64,000 nt of DNA, taken from assembly GCA_030145245.1 (NCBI GenBank), contig JAQYWC010000001.1, positions 124,001 to 188,000 on the forward strand. Direction: 5' to 3'. This DNA comes from Desulfobacterium sp. GTDB taxonomy: Bacteria > Desulfobacterota > Desulfobacteria > Desulfobacterales > Desulfobacteraceae. Shown here one piece after another: positions 21,733 through 27,700 of the stretch (its first letter is position 1; the number at the start of each line of letters is the position of its first letter). Both the position numbers and the translations under genes were made by a program. The notes under the pieces were generated by a model that ran no database searches, was not told the origin of the DNA, and saw only the letters and a list, made by a program, of their open reading frames with translations.

Positions 21733-22509
21733 ATGAATAGAACGGTTTTAATAACAGGATGCTCATCAGGTATTGGCAAGGAGACAGCACTGTTTTTTCA
21801 GGAAAAAGGGTGGAATGTAGCGGCAACCATGCGATCTCCGGAAAAGGAAAAGAGCCTGGGCAAACTTGAGAATGTAAAAACCTTCAAGCTTGATATTTTT
21901 GACAATGATTCGATCCATGCTGCTGTTCAGGGTAGTCTTAGTTATTTCGGCAATGTCGATGTGCTTGTCAATAGCGCAGGTTCCGGATTTATGGGACCGT
22001 TTGAAGCTGCATCAAAGGGTAAGGTCGCACAACAGTTCGGAACAAATGTTTTCGGTAATTTTAATGTTCCCAGGGAAGTTATTCCTCATTTCAAGGAGAA
22101 TAATAACGGTACCATAATTAATATTTCATCGGTCATCACGAGCGCTGATTTTCCATGCTACAGTTTGGACGCAACAACAAAGCATGCCATGGAAGGTTTT
22201 TCATGTTCCCTTTCCTATGAGTTAAGAAAGAATAACATTAAGGTGAAAGTAGTTCTTCCGACAGGTGCCCATGGTCAATCCCACGGCGCATCCAAGGGGT
22301 TTGCTGATTTTGACGAGTCTCCTGGATACCTTGATTATATGAAAAAAGTAAGAACAAAAAGTGATGATGTTGTCGAAAAAACAGGATCAAGGTCTTTCAT
22401 GGTGGCAAAGGTTATTTTCAAGGCCGCAACAGCGGATAAATTAAAGGCGCGTTCTCCTGCTAAAAATTCGCCAAAACAACTGCTGTTTATGAGAAAAATC
22501 TTCCGTTGA
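21733..22509 (+). CDS. SDR-family protein with replaced catalytic Tyr
   Basis: The short-chain dehydrogenase fold is clear: the cofactor motif TGCSSGIG near the N-terminus, the NSAG segment after strand 4, and ISSV with the catalytic Ser region. The active-site motif normally reads YxxxK. Here FPCYSLDATTKHAMEGFS places Asp146 (GAC) where Tyr (TAC) is expected, four residues before Lys150. A single base change explains this, so the protein is probably not a normal oxidoreductase. I start at the ATG at 21733, which has an AGGGGG site, not at the earlier 21691. It is divergent from the GlxA-type regulator. Confidence 0.85.
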   Translation: MNRTVLITGCSSGIGKETALFFQEKGWNVAATMRSPEKEKSLGKLENVKTFKLDIFDNDSIHAAVQGSLSYFGNVDVLVNSAGSGFMGPFEAASKGKVAQQFGTNVFGNFNVPREVIPHFKENNNGTIINISSVITSADFPCYSLDATTKHAMEGFSCSLSYELRKNNIKVKVVLPTGAHGQSHGASKGFADFDESPGYLDYMKKVRTKSDDVVEKTGSRSFMVAKVIFKAATADKLKARSPAKNSPKQLLFMRKIFR

Positions 22510-22561
22510 GGCATTTAAGGAAATGACCGGCAAAGTGATGGGGAGTGAGGAAAACCTCAGA

Positions 22562-23629
22562 TTAAAGCACGCCCCTTTTCCGGGCCATGCAGATCATTTG
22601 CTCAACCGTGTTTGAAGGGGGCATACGAATCTCGGCCTCGGCTTTAGGTACGAGTTTTAACGCTTCCGTTGGGCATGTGGTCACGCACAGTCCGCAACCG
22701 ATGCAGCGGTCGGTATCAACCGTTGCAATACCGTCATCGTTCATGCTGAGCGCATTCATCTGGCATCTGTCCAGGCACGCTTCACAGCCGGTGCAATCTT
22801 CATCTTCCGTGACAGCCAAATAGTTGGAAAAAACGATTTTCGCCGGTTTGGGGTGTTTGTTCAATGCCCGCAGCACACCGCAGCAATCGCCGCAACAGTT
22901 GCACATTCCTCCCGGGTTTTCTGACGTCGCCGGTTGCGTCACAAGGCCGGCGTCCCGGCATTTTGTGAGGATGTCCGTTGCTTCTTCCAGGGTAATCTTC
23001 CTGCCCATGTCACGGTCGAGATAGTACTGCCCCATGGAGCCGAACATAAAACAGGCTTCCATGGGCTTGCCGCAATCCTGGTCCACGACCTCGGCCGCTT
23101 TACGGCAAATGCAATCCGTAATTACAATAAGCTTTTTTTTCCGCAGAATTTCGACGGCATCTTCATAGCTGGCAATATTATGGGTCAGGTCGACGGATTG
23201 TTGAACCGGGATGGTTCGCAGAAAATAATCGGCACCGTCCTGCATGGCGTTGTCAAACGCCTCTTCGAAATATTGGTTTGCCATTTCAATAAAATCTTGT
23301 TCGAGATTCCTGACCTGAAACTCAAAAAGTCCGTGCACAAAGGGGATGGCGCCGTACTTAGCTGTATCCTCTTTTTTTAACCTGAACAGCAGGCCTCGCT
23401 CTGCCATGTCATCCAGATGTGCGGCAACGTCGGAAAGGGGCTTATCCAGGCGTGAAGCCACCGTTACCGGGGTCTCCAGCATGGGGGTCAAACCAATAAA
23501 CATCATTGCATCCGCCTCTGAAAACAGATACTTGAGAATTCTTAATTCGATTCCGGATGCAGTCGCCGGGAAACCCATGGAATATTGATTCAATTGTTGT
23601 TGCAGTTGGCGATAAACCTTCTCTTGCAT
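22562..23629 (-). CDS. Winged-helix and 4Fe-4S ferredoxin-domain protein
   Basis: The N-terminal part (about residues 20-105) looks like a winged helix (TPVTVASRLDKPLSDVAAHLDDMAERGLL in two pieces). A central region has clustered Cys (TDCICRKAAE, then GGMCNCCGDCCG). The C-terminus is a 2x[4Fe-4S] ferredoxin domain (CTGCEACLDRC and CIGCGLCVTTCP). Proteins of this layout are common in Desulfobacterota and are annotated only as 4Fe-4S binding proteins. It may be a redox-sensing or electron-carrying protein. It is convergent with the SDR gene, and function is not established. Confidence 0.8.
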   Translation of the reverse strand: MQEKVYRQLQQQLNQYSMGFPATASGIELRILKYLFSEADAMMFIGLTPMLETPVTVASRLDKPLSDVAAHLDDMAERGLLFRLKKEDTAKYGAIPFVHGLFEFQVRNLEQDFIEMANQYFEEAFDNAMQDGADYFLRTIPVQQSVDLTHNIASYEDAVEILRKKKLIVITDCICRKAAEVVDQDCGKPMEACFMFGSMGQYYLDRDMGRKITLEEATDILTKCRDAGLVTQPATSENPGGMCNCCGDCCGVLRALNKHPKPAKIVFSNYLAVTEDEDCTGCEACLDRCQMNALSMNDDGIATVDTDRCIGCGLCVTTCPTEALKLVPKAEAEIRMPPSNTVEQMICMARKRGVL

Positions 23630-23724
23630 TATTTGCTCTCCTCAAGCTTGATTTTGGTCAGAACCTCTTTTTCATCCGGTGGAATGCCTGCAGAGGCCCG
23701 GGCACCCCTTTTATAAAATTAAAC

Positions 23725-24810
23725 TCAAGAATCGTACCGGGCAGATAACCGCTTTAATCCGGCTTGAATGGGTTTTTCAATGGCTGTTTTTATAATGGAA
23801 CCCAGGAGGAAAAAAGGCGGTTTTGGTTCGAAATCCACCCGGTAAGTGAGCCGGGTTTTGCCATTTATATCTGCAAACTCCATTCGCCCCATGTGATTTT
23901 TTATGGGACTTCCTTTACTGACCTTATACTCCATAAGCTGATTTGGCTCGAATGTGATAACGGATTCCTCAAAGGCTGGGGCTGGAAAAGCCTGAATTCG
24001 CCTGACCGACCCCAGGCCATTTTTATTTTCGCCCCGACTGTCAATCACCCGTTTTATTTTTGCATTTAATATCCGCCCGAACGCTTCATGGTCTGTTAAG
24101 ATGTTAAAAATCGTTTCAACGGGTGCATTGAATACCTGGGTAATTATTATCTTCTGTTTGTTCGGTTTTATCTTGCTTCCCAGAATTCTGAGCATATTGA
24201 CCGGCAGTAAAAAAAAGTGTTTCCAGTCTGCAGAATTTCCTTTGGTTATCATATTCATTGACGTTCGCCAATTACTTTTAGGAGATGGAATAATCCATGA
24301 TTTTTTCGGTCCTGTCTGCATTTTGTGACCGGTATCCTTATGGAGCTGTTCCAGAAAAGACAACTCGTCCGTCAGGTCAACACGATTGACTGTGCCGTCA
24401 AGAGATCGATAACAGATTTTTCCTTTTGGGTTGATAATGAACGTTGCCGGATAGGCAATGCCTCCATGCTCAAACGGGTTTCTGAGTTTAAACAGATCAA
24501 CAACCTTTCTGTCTTCATCACAGAGAAGCGTTAATGAGAAGTTCATTTTTTTGATGATACCTGCGGACTGCTTCGGCGAATCAGTGGAAAGCGCAAACAC
24601 CTTTGTATTCAGCTTTGTATAGGTGTCATAATTCCTTTGTATTTCCGCCAACTGGTGGATGCAAAAGGGTCACCAGTGCCCCCGGTAAAACATCAGTTTA
24701 ACAGTCTTACCGGATTTTAGTTCCTCACTGAGTTTGAATATTTTACTGTCTGACGTCAACACTTCAAAATCTGGTGTGTCCTGGCCGATATCCGGGATAC
24801 TTTGATTCAT
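23725..24810 (-). CDS. Selenocysteine-containing peroxiredoxin-like protein fused to an SRPBCC domain
   Basis: The frame runs from an ATG at 24810 (GGAG upstream) through an in-frame TGA at 24670-24672 to a stop at 23725, giving 361 residues. Before the TGA is MFYRGHW and after it PFC, so the family's RGHWCPFC active site has Sec47 in the peroxidatic position and Cys50 as partner (UxxC). The thioredoxin fold continues to about residue 165 (KVFALSTDSPKQSAG, AYPATFIINPKGKI). Residues about 215-361 form an SRPBCC/polyketide-cyclase-like lipid-binding domain (ITQVFNAPVETIFNILTDHE). Predicted role: thiol-dependent peroxide or hydrophobic-substrate reduction. A SECIS-like hairpin follows the UGA. 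A non-Sec frame starting after the TGA would lack the active site. Confidence 0.88.
24634..24668 (-). promoter_or_regulatory. Bacterial SECIS-like hairpin
   Basis: Immediately after the UGA the mRNA folds into a long hairpin. CCUUU pairs with AAAGG, one U is bulged, G-C and AU-AU pairs follow, then CC-A-CC against GG-C-GG encloses the apical loop AGUU. The loop begins 17 nt after the UGA. Bulged U and a GU in the loop are hallmarks of bacterial SECIS elements that bind SelB. The fold is by eye. Confidence 0.75.
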
Positions 24811-24909
24811 TGGGTTCTCCATAATAAAAGATTTTTCATAGACCAATCAATTGTGTGTCAAACAGCGTACAAGGTCTTGGCAGGAAGATGCTTTTGGGAA
24901 GGAAAAATG

Positions 24910-25539
24910 CTAAACGCCTTTCACCACAAGCACTGCGGCCACCTCCGCAAGGGTTTTGTAGTCCAGCTGGTTCTCACAGGCCACAGACTGGATGACCAAT
25001 CCGTCCAACATGGCCACCCAAATACGTGCGATCCCCTTGGGTAAAGGCTCTTGCCGTCCCATTCTGCAATACATCTCTTCAATGAGATGGAACCAGTTTT
25101 CATAGGTGGCTTCAAGCCTGTCCCTTAAGGCCGGGCCACCGGAAAGGGATTCATGGATAAGGTAAAGGTGGAGCCGGCTTCGGGTCTTTGATCCCAATAG
25201 CCGTTCAAAAAGAGTCGCGAGAATCTCCTTCCAGGAAGGGGTGGGGCGGCCATTCTCCAGCATGGCGAATAAATTATCGGTGATATCCAGCATGTGGATA
25301 CCGGCAATATCAAACACAAGGTCATGCTTGGTGGGAAAGTAGTAATAGAGGGTCCCTTTGCTGATGCCGGCCCGCCTGGCCACATCGGTAAGGGTGGTTT
25401 TGTCCACTGATTTTTCGCTGAAGCACTGCTGTGCTGAGGCGATGATCAGCTCTTTGCATTCGCCTTTTTTTAGGCCCCGTTTCACATTCACCTGCCCCTG
25501 AATGCTCTGTAACCACCGTTGAAAGGCAAATGTACCCAC
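24910..25539 (-). CDS. TetR/AcrR-family transcriptional regulator
   Basis: A TetR helix-turn-helix is clear (LIIASAQQCFSEKSVDKTTL, then RRAGISKGTLYYYFPTKHDL), followed by a helical ligand-binding domain. The furthest in-frame start is a GTG at 25539. A GTG at 25485 (VKRGLKKGECKEL) has a GGGGCAGG site and fits the family's N-terminus better, so the true protein may be 191 aa. It is divergent from another TetR gene at 25788. The target is unknown. The selenoprotein gene just downstream is a candidate by proximity only. Confidence 0.85.
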   Translation of the reverse strand: MGTFAFQRWLQSIQGQVNVKRGLKKGECKELIIASAQQCFSEKSVDKTTLTDVARRAGISKGTLYYYFPTKHDLVFDIAGIHMLDITDNLFAMLENGRPTPSWKEILATLFERLLGSKTRSRLHLYLIHESLSGGPALRDRLEATYENWFHLIEEMYCRMGRQEPLPKGIARIWVAMLDGLVIQSVACENQLDYKTLAEVAAVLVVKGV

Positions 25540-25627
25540 TCCGGAATTACGAGCTGTTAATATGCGATTTAAATTTTCCCGAACCAGAGGAGGGGGCTTT
25601 TTACAGCATCACCGGGAACCTGACAAG

Positions 25628-25710
25628 ATCCCCCCGCATGTTCGGCAAAGAGCATATATAATTCCAAACGGTGTGTCCACAATCTTTTTGTTCTCCTTGG
25701 AAGGTCCGGG
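25628..25710 (+). repeat. Dispersed repeat, copy C (partial)
   Basis: About 80 bp containing ACGGTGTGTCCACAATCTTT and the following TTTGTTCTCC matches the start of repeat copy B at 28926-28998, including the preceding AGC-ATAT segment. It lies between two divergent tetR genes and lacks the ferredoxin-derived portion present in copies A and B. Confidence 0.7.
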
Positions 25711-25761
25711 GGCGCACATTTGGCTTGGTGGTCAAAGAAAATAAAAACCCCCTTGCATTAA

Positions 25762-25776
25762 AAGACGACCGGTCTT
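25762..25776. promoter_or_regulatory. TetR-type operator of the Old Yellow Enzyme locus, copy 1
   Basis: AAGAC-GACCG-GTCTT lies 12 bp before the tetR ATG at 25788. The same core occurs before the flavin oxidoreductase at 26433, supporting autoregulation and control of that operon. Confidence 0.75.
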
Positions 25777-25787
25777 ATACTTTCTCC

Positions 25788-26387
25788 ATGGGACGACCAA
25801 GAAAAAGCGAACATACACGGCAAAAACTTCTGGAAATGGGGGTTGGGTTGCTGTCGGAACACGGGTACCACGGATGCGGCCTGAAAAAGATCCTGGACAC
25901 GGTGCAGGTTCCAAAGGGCTCCTTTTACAACTATTTCGAGAGTAAAGAGGCATACGTGTCGGAGATCATCCAGTTCTATAGCCAGGGACTGATCGCGCGG
26001 TTGGACGCCTACCTTGAAACCACCGCCGACGATCCGGTCTCCACGATTCGGAATATCTATACAGCAGCGGCCGGTGAGCTGGAAGCCCATGGCAGGCAGG
26101 GCTGCCTGATCGGCAATCTGGCCGCCGAACTCGGGAGCTCCAGCAACCTGTGCCGACTCACCATGCAGCAGTCGTTTGAGGGCTGGAAGAATCGAATTGT
26201 CCCCTTGATTCGAGCGGGTCAGGAGAGCGGGCAGATCCGGGATGATCTGTCAGCTGAAATTTTGACGGACGTGTTCTGGAACACCTGGCAGGGCGGGCTT
26301 CTGAGGATGAAGATTGACGGGGATGCCGCACATTTACGGGATCTTCCCCATCTGGTTTTGGATGTTCTGTTTGTACCCTGCCGGTAA
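25788..26387 (+). CDS. TetR/AcrR-family regulator of the Old Yellow Enzyme operon
   Basis: From the ATG at 25788 (MGRPRKSEHTRQKLLEMGVG) the protein is 199 aa, with an AcrR-type helix-turn-helix (LKKILDTVQVPKGSFYNYFE, residues about 30-50). The C-terminal domain (about 80-195, GCLIGNLAAELG) is of the TetR_C_6 or YxaF type typical of regulators next to flavin-dependent reductases. A longer upstream reading is possible but would run through the operator. The same palindrome precedes this gene and the Old Yellow Enzyme at 26465, making that pair the likely target. Electrophilic enones are typical inducers in related systems, but this is inference. Confidence 0.9.
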   Translation: MGRPRKSEHTRQKLLEMGVGLLSEHGYHGCGLKKILDTVQVPKGSFYNYFESKEAYVSEIIQFYSQGLIARLDAYLETTADDPVSTIRNIYTAAAGELEAHGRQGCLIGNLAAELGSSSNLCRLTMQQSFEGWKNRIVPLIRAGQESGQIRDDLSAEILTDVFWNTWQGGLLRMKIDGDAAHLRDLPHLVLDVLFVPCR

Positions 26388-26432
26388 ATAAAAGGTATCA
26401 TCGGAGAGTTTTGATTTTTTTTGGCTAAATAA

Positions 26433-26447
26433 TAGACGACCGGTCTA
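26433..26447. promoter_or_regulatory. TetR-type operator of the Old Yellow Enzyme locus, copy 2
   Basis: TAGAC-GACCG-GTCTA is a 15-bp inverted repeat 17 bp upstream of the flavin oxidoreductase ATG. AAGGAG follows it at about 26453. Binding here would block transcription start or elongation of the operon. Confidence 0.75.
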
Positions 26448-26464
26448 ATGCTAAGGAGAGCGCC

Positions 26465-27700
26465 ATGAATGAAACAGGTATCGTTTCCACCCCCCTGGAC
26501 CTTGCCCGGGGCAGGGTTGTTAAAAACCGTCTTTTTAAATCCGCCATGAGCGAACAGCTGGGAGACAGGGATCACAATCCGGAAAAGGAGTTGGTGAAGC
26601 TGTATGAAACCTGGGCAGAGGGCGGCATCGGAATCTCGGTCACTGGGAACGTGATGGTGGACCGCCAGGCCCTGGGAGAACCCAAAAATGTGGTTCTGGA
26701 CGGGGAAAGTGACCTGGCTGGGTTTGCGGCCTGGGCTGAAGCGGGTACCCGAAATGGCACCCAGCTCTGGATGCAGCTGAATCACCCCGGCAAACAGAGC
26801 CCGAGTTTCCTGAGCAAAGAGCCCGTGGCCCCCTCGGCGGTTCCTTTGATCGGAGCCCTTAAATCGGCTTTCAGCCCGCCCCGGGAACTGACAGAGACAG
26901 AAATCCAGGGGATAATTTCCAAATTCGCCCAAAGTGCCGCCCTGGCTAAAAAAGCTGGATTTTCAGGCGTTCAGATGCACTGTGCCCACGGCTATCTGCT
27001 CAGTCAGTTCCTCTCCCCCTGGCACAACCGGCGGGAGGACGATTGGGGAGGAACCCCGGAAAAACGGATGCGATTTCCTGTGGCCGTTTATCGCGCCATC
27101 CGGGGGGCGGTGGGGAACGATTACCCCGTTGGCCTGAAGATGAACTCGGCGGACTTTAAAAACGGCGGGTTCACCATGGAGGAATCCATGGACGTGGCCC
27201 TGACCATGCAGGAGGAGGGGATTGACCTGATCGAGATCTCCGGAGGCACCTACGAAAACCCAAGCATGACCGGCCACGGTACCCGGTCCTCTGACCGGGA
27301 GGCGTACTTTATTGAATATGCCGATGCCATGCGTAATAAACTGACAGTTCCCCTGGTGGTTACCGGAGGGTTTCGGTCTGGCCCGGCCATGGCGTCTGCC
27401 CTCACATCCGGCGTGACCGATATGATCGGTTTAGCCAGACCCCTGGCCGTGGAGCCTGATTTCCCAAACCGATTGATTGCGGACCCGGCCTATGTTTCGA
27501 ACCTGAAACGTCCCACTACGGGCATCCGTCCCCTGGATCGCGCAGCCATGGTGGATATCACCTGGTATGAGTTTCAGCTTTACAGGATCGGTCGGGGAAA
27601 AAAGGCCAACCCGGACCTGAGCGCCTGGAAGGCCGTGTTTCAGACCTTCTGGAGAATGGGGGGGCACGCTTTTAAACAGAGACGCGCCAAAGGAAACTAA
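26465..27700 (+). CDS. NADH:flavin oxidoreductase, Old Yellow Enzyme family
   Basis: This FMN enzyme of 411 aa reduces activated C=C bonds such as those of enones or enoates. It has the (beta/alpha)8 barrel with LFKSAMSEQLGD near the N-terminus, the substrate/flavin His-rich segment MHCAHGYLLSQFLSPWHNRR, RREDDWGGTPEKRMRF, and the phosphate-binding GFRSGPAMASAL near the end. There is no C-terminal Fe-S domain, so it is the short OYE form. It lies directly behind the TetR operator and 91 bp before a second family member. Physiological substrate unknown. Confidence 0.92.
   Translation: MNETGIVSTPLDLARGRVVKNRLFKSAMSEQLGDRDHNPEKELVKLYETWAEGGIGISVTGNVMVDRQALGEPKNVVLDGESDLAGFAAWAEAGTRNGTQLWMQLNHPGKQSPSFLSKEPVAPSAVPLIGALKSAFSPPRELTETEIQGIISKFAQSAALAKKAGFSGVQMHCAHGYLLSQFLSPWHNRREDDWGGTPEKRMRFPVAVYRAIRGAVGNDYPVGLKMNSADFKNGGFTMEESMDVALTMQEEGIDLIEISGGTYENPSMTGHGTRSSDREAYFIEYADAMRNKLTVPLVVTGGFRSGPAMASALTSGVTDMIGLARPLAVEPDFPNRLIADPAYVSNLKRPTTGIRPLDRAAMVDITWYEFQLYRIGRGKKANPDLSAWKAVFQTFWRMGGHAFKQRRAKGN

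Follow-up and report, generated by a model that had tools for sequence, protein, structure and literature searches.

The gene under study lies on the minus strand at positions 23725-24810 of the window (the whole stretch of 64,000 nucleotides from Desulfobacterium sp., a sulfate-reducing bacterium, that was analysed) and encodes a redoxin fused to an SRPBCC domain. The minus strand is the coding strand, a point absent from the initial annotation, and all the features of the window located below are on it. The gene starts with ATG (24810-24808), comprises 361 codons (24810-23728) of which one is an in-frame UGA, and ends with the stop TGA (23727-23725). With the internal TGA read as a residue the frame gives 361 residues and no further stop, its own stop being also TGA. 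The ribosome binding site is GGAG (24817-24820), 6 nt 5' of the ATG; GGAG-type sites also precede the homologues in the same genome (the paralogue G000:C4), in Desulfobacterium sp. MAG9 (G001) and in G071, and a weaker one was identified in G066. MAG9 contains the same 361-residue fusion, 83% identical and with UGA at the same codon. This copy, together with the frame and the GGAG, bears out the initial annotation in its proposal that the ATG and ribosome site lead to a 361-aa product across the UGA.

The first part of the protein is an AhpC-TSA (peroxiredoxin-like) domain, PF00578, covering residues 8-134 (24409-24789; E 4.4e-28, 98.2 bits against a cut-off of 26). It is followed by a C-terminal extension of the redoxin with two predicted helices (residues 161-215, 24166-24330), which forms the C-terminus of the stand-alone Sec redoxins of the clade, and by an SRPBCC domain without Cys (residues 216-361, 23728-24165). 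The latter was identified in Pfam as Polyketide_cyc2, an SRPBCC family, at residues 220-358 (E 4.8e-15, 56.5 bits against a cut-off of 27.4), and both Pfam domain matches exceed the curated cut-offs. No NCBIfam model reaches its cut-off for the window protein or for the four relatives scanned; for the window protein the best was ResA (44.6 bits against a cut-off of 170), followed by the Bcp type of thiol peroxidase (42.5 against 140), SelL_rel_redox (37.9 against 120) and PrxU (33.1 against 270). The AlphaFold model of the whole protein, built from 20 sequences, has a mean pLDDT of 87.7 and a pTM of 0.60, and over residues 3-161 it fits the solved structures of peroxiredoxins (best Z 22.4, rmsd 1.5, 153 aligned). 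Residues 214-361 modelled alone (5 sequences, pLDDT 86.8) present the SRPBCC (helix-grip) fold and are closest to 7tmu (Z 18.5, rmsd 2.0, 137 aligned), then to the TcmN aromatase/cyclase and to plant hormone receptors. By eye, the window protein has neither a signal peptide nor an N-terminal anchor, and it is probably cytosolic.

The gene is flanked on the same strand by a regulator-like gene upstream (24910-25539, TetR type by eye, 99 nt before the ATG) and by a ferredoxin-like gene with 4Fe-4S binding motifs downstream (22562-23629). No regulator-like gene was seen by eye beside the other fusions, and no conserved operon was found around the fusions. In L031:1353-8537 the C4 paralogue is preceded by genes that encode cytochrome b, a multihaem cytochrome c and, by eye, a Rieske-like protein; DUF3108 and DUF362 genes come after it. 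DUF362 is the sole shared neighbour noticed: it adjoins the MAG9 fusion (L032:6137-7366) and lies two genes after the C4 paralogue, with 69% identity. No relative of DUF362 was matched in the window at E 1e-6, in a search that covered about 35 loci.

The UGA codon of residue 47 (24670-24672) is the first residue of UxxC in YRGHW-U-PFC, and Sec at this position is well supported by the comparisons that follow. The genes selA, selB, selD and tRNA-Sec (selC) were identified above cut-off in the genome itself and in four relatives (5/5 each), the tRNA-Sec of the former having the anticodon TCA. The selB and selC genes, whose absence the initial annotation had named as evidence against its reading, are thus both present. 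In all five genomes selD itself presents an in-frame TGA (the copy of the window's genome being G000:C33:156-1079). A second SelB above cut-off adjoins a second tRNA-Sec, also with anticodon TCA, in G071 (G071:C31:144350-146832; L046, L054), a genome whose ordinary selB and tRNA-Sec lie at another site.

Genome contigs were scanned with two peptide patterns, which led to 188 confirmed loci and, from these, to a set of the best 80; since only these two patterns were sought, fusions with neither would escape. Among the best 80 of 188 loci the codon after RGHW is UGA in 71 and Cys in 9. RGHW itself is no evidence because it belonged to one of the search patterns; the codon that follows it is. UxxC is present in all 71 Sec forms and CxxC in every Cys form (9) but one, L131 (RGHWCPAD). 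By their titles, the records with Sec loci belong to Desulfobacterales, Acidobacteriota, Myxococcota, Gemmatimonadota, Planctomycetota and other groups. A set of 22 homologues (18 Sec and 4 Cys, overlapping with the 80 loci) has Cys or Sec at position 47 in every one. Homologues with Cys at residue 47, which the initial annotation had proposed to look for, were therefore found, Cys versions of the fusion included; many homologues are without the SRPBCC domain, and none of those is without both Cys and Sec.

UGA 47 could instead be a true stop, the downstream part being translated alone or the gene decaying. A TTG start is present after the UGA, and stop codons are possible in decaying genes. 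This reading is nevertheless extremely improbable and was rejected on four grounds: the full Sec machinery of the genome, the UGA at the identical codon or Cys in its place among the best 80 loci, a hairpin that is kept with the UGA and was not seen in 4 Cys homologues, and a dN/dS that stays below 1 before and after the UGA. Between the window gene and that of MAG9 this ratio is 0.37 before the UGA, 0.27 at residues 48-215 and 0.15 in the SRPBCC part. SelB and tRNA-Sec would decode UGA 47 as selenocysteine, aided by the adjacent downstream hairpin, as these features strongly indicate.

The SECIS-type hairpin (24644-24659) has a stem of six pairs and the loop AGUU (24653-24650), which begins 16 nt past the UGA. 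It was analysed in 19 close-clade Sec sequences (the window and 18 loci) in a gapless alignment, and the AGUU loop is present in 19/19. On average 5.47 of the 6 pairs form, and a synonymous redrawing of the codons gives 3.84 +/- 0.20 (2000 draws, highest 4.47). The 4 Cys homologues present 3.0 pairs, against 3.35 +/- 0.43 expected, and four different loops, one of them AGUU. Paired cells amount to 91.2%, against 85.2 +/- 1.8 in shuffles (1/500 reaches 91.2%); sliding the partner by 1-3 columns leaves 60.5% at the most. Two-sided changes were identified in 8 cells, 7 of which turn the C-G of one and the same pair into A-U or G-U. Two of the five shuffle measures were unremarkable: pairs with a two-sided change were as high in 189/500 shuffles and further pair types in 258/500. 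Relatedness inflates the remaining shuffle measures, so the argument is carried by the slid control and the synonymous null. One stem place is unpaired in 6/19 sequences, the window included, where it is an A-C mismatch. The initial annotation had described a bulged-U, GU-loop hairpin; the hairpin and its loop, as AGUU, hold, but the bulged U does not, the U at the stem foot being invariant in the 19 sequences and paired there. Distant Sec loci have other sequences after the UGA, often CAGCTCGG..GAGCTG, which by eye would give another hairpin. Rfam gave 0 matches at E up to 5 over positions 22000-26500, a result that says little on bacterial SECIS.

Aligned with PDB entries for AhpE and PrxQ/Bcp-type peroxiredoxins, directly and as a profile, the protein has U47 at the Ser/Thr of T/SxxC, Cys50 (24661-24663, the second residue of UxxC) at the peroxidatic Cys of true peroxiredoxins and Pro121 (24448-24450) at the catalytic Arg, which in AhpE is R116 according to the title of entry 4xih. 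The UGA had been placed by the initial annotation exactly where the peroxidatic Cys is expected; it is three residues off, and this placement was ruled out by the AhpE, PrxQ/Bcp and ResA alignments. The peroxiredoxin pattern PxxxT/SxxC(U) plus Arg is not present, its positions being occupied by R43, U47, C50 and P121. In the alignment to ResA, U47 and Cys50 correspond to the CxxC pair and Pro121 to the Pro of LPTTFLINP (the LPTTF segment). In peroxiredoxins and ResA these positions are established as the catalytic residues and the cis-Pro. Since U47 and Cys50 correspond to the CxxC pair and Pro121 to the ResA Pro, the active site is, as judged from these alignments, a thioredoxin/ResA-type UxxC on a peroxiredoxin-like scaffold.

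The window protein is assigned on this basis to the Prx-like thiol:disulfide oxidoreductase selenoproteins, a class whose activity is a predicted one. In PMC1088965 the Prx-like class is defined by UXXC instead of TXXU, the published Sec peroxiredoxins carry TxxU and the glutathione peroxidases have Sec in first position, as UxxT. The class has been in bioinformatic lists since at least 2005 (PMC1088965), is named 'Prx-like 1' in PMC2398784 and appears also in PMC1794560, PMC9312934 and PMC13188914. The occurrence of UGA in related redoxins, taken as known by the initial annotation, corresponds to this published class. A 2026 review (PMC13188914) presents the functions of the Prx-like UxxC and other predicted families as largely uncharacterised, and the D. 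autotrophicum genome report (PMC2702500) gives 31 selenocysteine proteins and mentions a Sec peroxidase.

The window protein shares with the Prx-like UxxC selenoproteins the AhpC-TSA domain, the UxxC in place of TxxU, a SECIS-type hairpin right after the UGA and the existence of Cys homologues, but adds to them a 55-residue extension and the C-terminal SRPBCC domain. It shares with the peroxiredoxins (PrxQ/Bcp, AhpE) the fold over residues 3-161, and differs in having U47 for the Thr/Ser of T/SxxC, Pro121 for the catalytic Arg and Arg43 for the Pro of the motif. ResA/TlpA have their CxxC at the place of the UxxC and a Pro at the place of Pro121, whereas the window protein has Sec for the first Cys and an SRPBCC partner and, by eye, is without signal peptide and N-terminal anchor. 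With the SRPBCC/Polyketide_cyc2 proteins it has in common the Pfam match above cut-off, the SRPBCC fold and stand-alone relatives 58-80% identical, the difference being that its SRPBCC domain is fused to a selenoredoxin.

L131 (5001-5657) is a one-Cys form inside the Sec clade, where residue 47 is kept and residue 50 lost; as it keeps residue 47 alone, position 47 is suggested as the attacking residue. The same form, with the peroxiredoxin fold, Sec in first position as in the glutathione peroxidases (the UxxT of PMC1088965) and a partner domain from a family known for hydrophobic ligands, would agree with a selenium-dependent lipid hydroperoxide peroxidase in which U47 attacks and the SRPBCC domain is the lipid holder, GPX4-like in function. 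Such an enzyme is rather unlikely here: the Pro, Thr and Arg of peroxiredoxins are missing and Cys at position 50 alone remains, the published Sec peroxiredoxins are TxxU and not UxxC, and the 6 Pfam families that reach E 1 or better for the window protein include no GSHPx/GPX family. The thiol:disulfide type of site is preferred. The U47 selenolate would attack, as its oxidised substrate, a disulfide, some oxidation product of a thiol or perhaps a peroxide, Cys50 would resolve the adduct as a Se-S bond and a thioredoxin-type reductant would then reduce this bond, as expected for a ResA-type site.

The fusion to an SRPBCC domain, claimed by the initial annotation, is confirmed by the Pfam match above cut-off and by the same joint in MAG9, which also rules out an assembly artefact at the joint. 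Over all searches the fused forms comprise the window gene, that of MAG9, the C4 paralogue of the same genome and three Cys forms: those of MAG DeMMO2_10 (G149), Desulfatibacillum alkenivorans DSM 16219 (G098) and Desulfatibacillum sp. MAG7 (G109). The initial annotation had proposed a search for the same fusion in other Desulfobacterota, and these Sec and Cys versions answer it. The C4 paralogue is a Sec form whose SRPBCC domain (a Pfam match) is only 23% identical to that of the window. The three Cys fusions have the same domain order and the extension, but differ from the window protein in the Cys at position 47, in being without SECIS-type pairing and in an identity of 30-34%.

The class sample comprises 389 genomes, searched with the redoxin part (E up to 1e-12) and the SRPBCC part (E up to 1e-8). 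The redoxin was identified in 21 genomes, the SRPBCC in 28 and both in 8, in 5 of these as a fusion. Strict co-occurrence of the two was not seen in these 389 genomes, 13/21 redoxin genomes having no SRPBCC match and 20/28 SRPBCC genomes no redoxin match. In the phylum sample (395 genomes) at least 4 end-to-end matches were identified in 3 genomes, among the matches listed. The fusion is present in 3/9 genomes of the family of D. alkenivorans DSM 16219 and in 2/3 genomes of the genus of the window, the third (G002) being without a close homologue.

Ten intact Sec homologues without SRPBCC end at about 215-240 residues (L003, L072-L076 and L078-L081), and three more stand-alone Sec homologues have about the same length (L125, L127 and L129, about 215-240 residues). 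L077 is of the stand-alone type with an in-frame TAA. Given these stand-alone Sec relatives and the 13/21 genomes with no SRPBCC match, the SRPBCC domain is not required for the function of the redoxin. The close stand-alone relatives of the SRPBCC part (58-80% identical) start right at the fusion joint. Two other stand-alone SRPBCC proteins, from the Desulfatibacillum family (L202 and L219, in G103 and G223), match the fusion model from about position 195, inside the redoxin extension. A near relative in a MAG titled Desulfuromonadales (L121:256-714) is cut short, with similarity stopping at about residue 139.

Other fusion partners are on record for Prx and Prx-like selenoproteins: PP2C, a distant Secretin_N and domains of no known kind (PMC2398784), and DsbC (PMC9402790). 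No description of a redoxin-SRPBCC fusion was found among the publications listed, nor any publication treating SRPBCC together with selenocysteine, in a search mostly outside subscription journals; PMC8638967 mentions SRPBCC and peroxiredoxin once each. What appears to be new is the architecture, a selenoredoxin with an SRPBCC domain, the class and its fusions to other domains being already known.

The redoxin tree comprises 29 rows, L121 and L130 being left out for their missing ends. Monophyly of the six fusions was rejected on this tree (AU p 0.0118; 3 state changes), and so was that of the five fusions without the C4 paralogue (AU p 0.0128). A single origin of all fusions, rejected by these values, is not rejected by the SRPBCC tree, where a single clade of the five fusions (C4 left out beforehand) has p 0.057. 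The three Sec fusions as one clade were not rejected on the redoxin tree (p 0.215). The Cys fusions are on long branches, and long branches meet in these trees. The Sec fusions and the Cys fusions probably arose apart, and the distant SRPBCC of the C4 paralogue probably comes from a further joining or from a partner swap; loss of the SRPBCC domain in between is an alternative course compatible with the trees. With p 0.057 on the SRPBCC tree, p 0.215 for the Sec fusions and the long Cys branches, the number of joining events is uncertain.

The extension of residues 161-215 is common to the fused and stand-alone forms of the clade, N186, G191 and W196 being invariant among the six fusions, and the aligned Acidobacteriota homologues end before the point where it ends in the clade. 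Its charge and hydropathy were measured in 19 of 20 rows (L081, with no DWKH motif, was out, and L077, L121 and L130 were not included). In 13 stand-alone tails (12 Sec and the one-Cys L131) the net charge after the most hydrophobic 15 residues is +3 to +7; by the same measure it is +4 to +5 in the three Sec fusions and 0 to +2 in the three Cys fusions. The mean hydropathy of 15 residues in the 13 stand-alone tails is 0.21 to 1.67, three being below 0.5, and the hydrophobic moment is modest. The extension may possibly be a peripheral membrane contact, placing the redoxin against the membrane; the weak hydropathy of some tails and the modest moment leave this as a suggestion.

The SRPBCC domain has no Cys and is therefore not a thiol relay. 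In 5/10 loci viewed, several of them with short flanks, members of its subfamily accompany a radical SAM protein: in frame in L038:4290-6032 (G019) and as neighbours in L039, L098, L100 and L104. Radical SAM and SPASM were identified by Pfam in L039, the one locus of the five so scanned, the other four loci being alike by eye, and this points to a radical SAM protein as second enzyme partner of the subfamily. As the subfamily occurs also alone and with radical SAM proteins, it may serve generally for ligand binding or docking. A role of the domain in regulation or docking, as ligand sensor or as protein-protein contact and with no turnover of a hydrophobic substrate, is consistent too with its being without Cys and with the hormone receptors among the structures near its model. 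Different SRPBCC domains on the same redoxin family favour instead a shared kind of ligand or workplace, with which a sensor is still compatible, and a purely regulatory or docking role is considered improbable.

The reading preferred, and a fairly likely one, is that of a UxxC selenoredoxin, probably cytosolic, which would receive its Sec through SelB, tRNA-Sec and the hairpin, and whose SRPBCC domain would either hold a hydrophobic ligand or dock with a hydrophobic partner, and so bring the selenoredoxin to its place of action. Binding of a hydrophobic ligand by the SRPBCC domain would be in keeping with its family. More speculatively, and with no great probability, the protein may be a two-part selenoenzyme of Desulfobacterota, whose UxxC selenoredoxin is handed oxidised hydrophobic molecules at the membrane by the lipid-pocket domain: lipid peroxides, quinone-type molecules or lipid-linked disulfides. 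It would then match lipid-protecting selenoenzymes such as GPX4 functionally and not by ancestry, and would have arisen more than once through the joining of SRPBCC domains to one redoxin family. The Cys fusion of D. alkenivorans DSM 16219 would offer a Sec-free way to what the SRPBCC pocket binds. For a class of selenoproteins with a predicted activity, the SRPBCC fusion, found with Sec and with Cys and with distant SRPBCC partners, is a hint at the substrate side, which may be hydrophobic or at the membrane.
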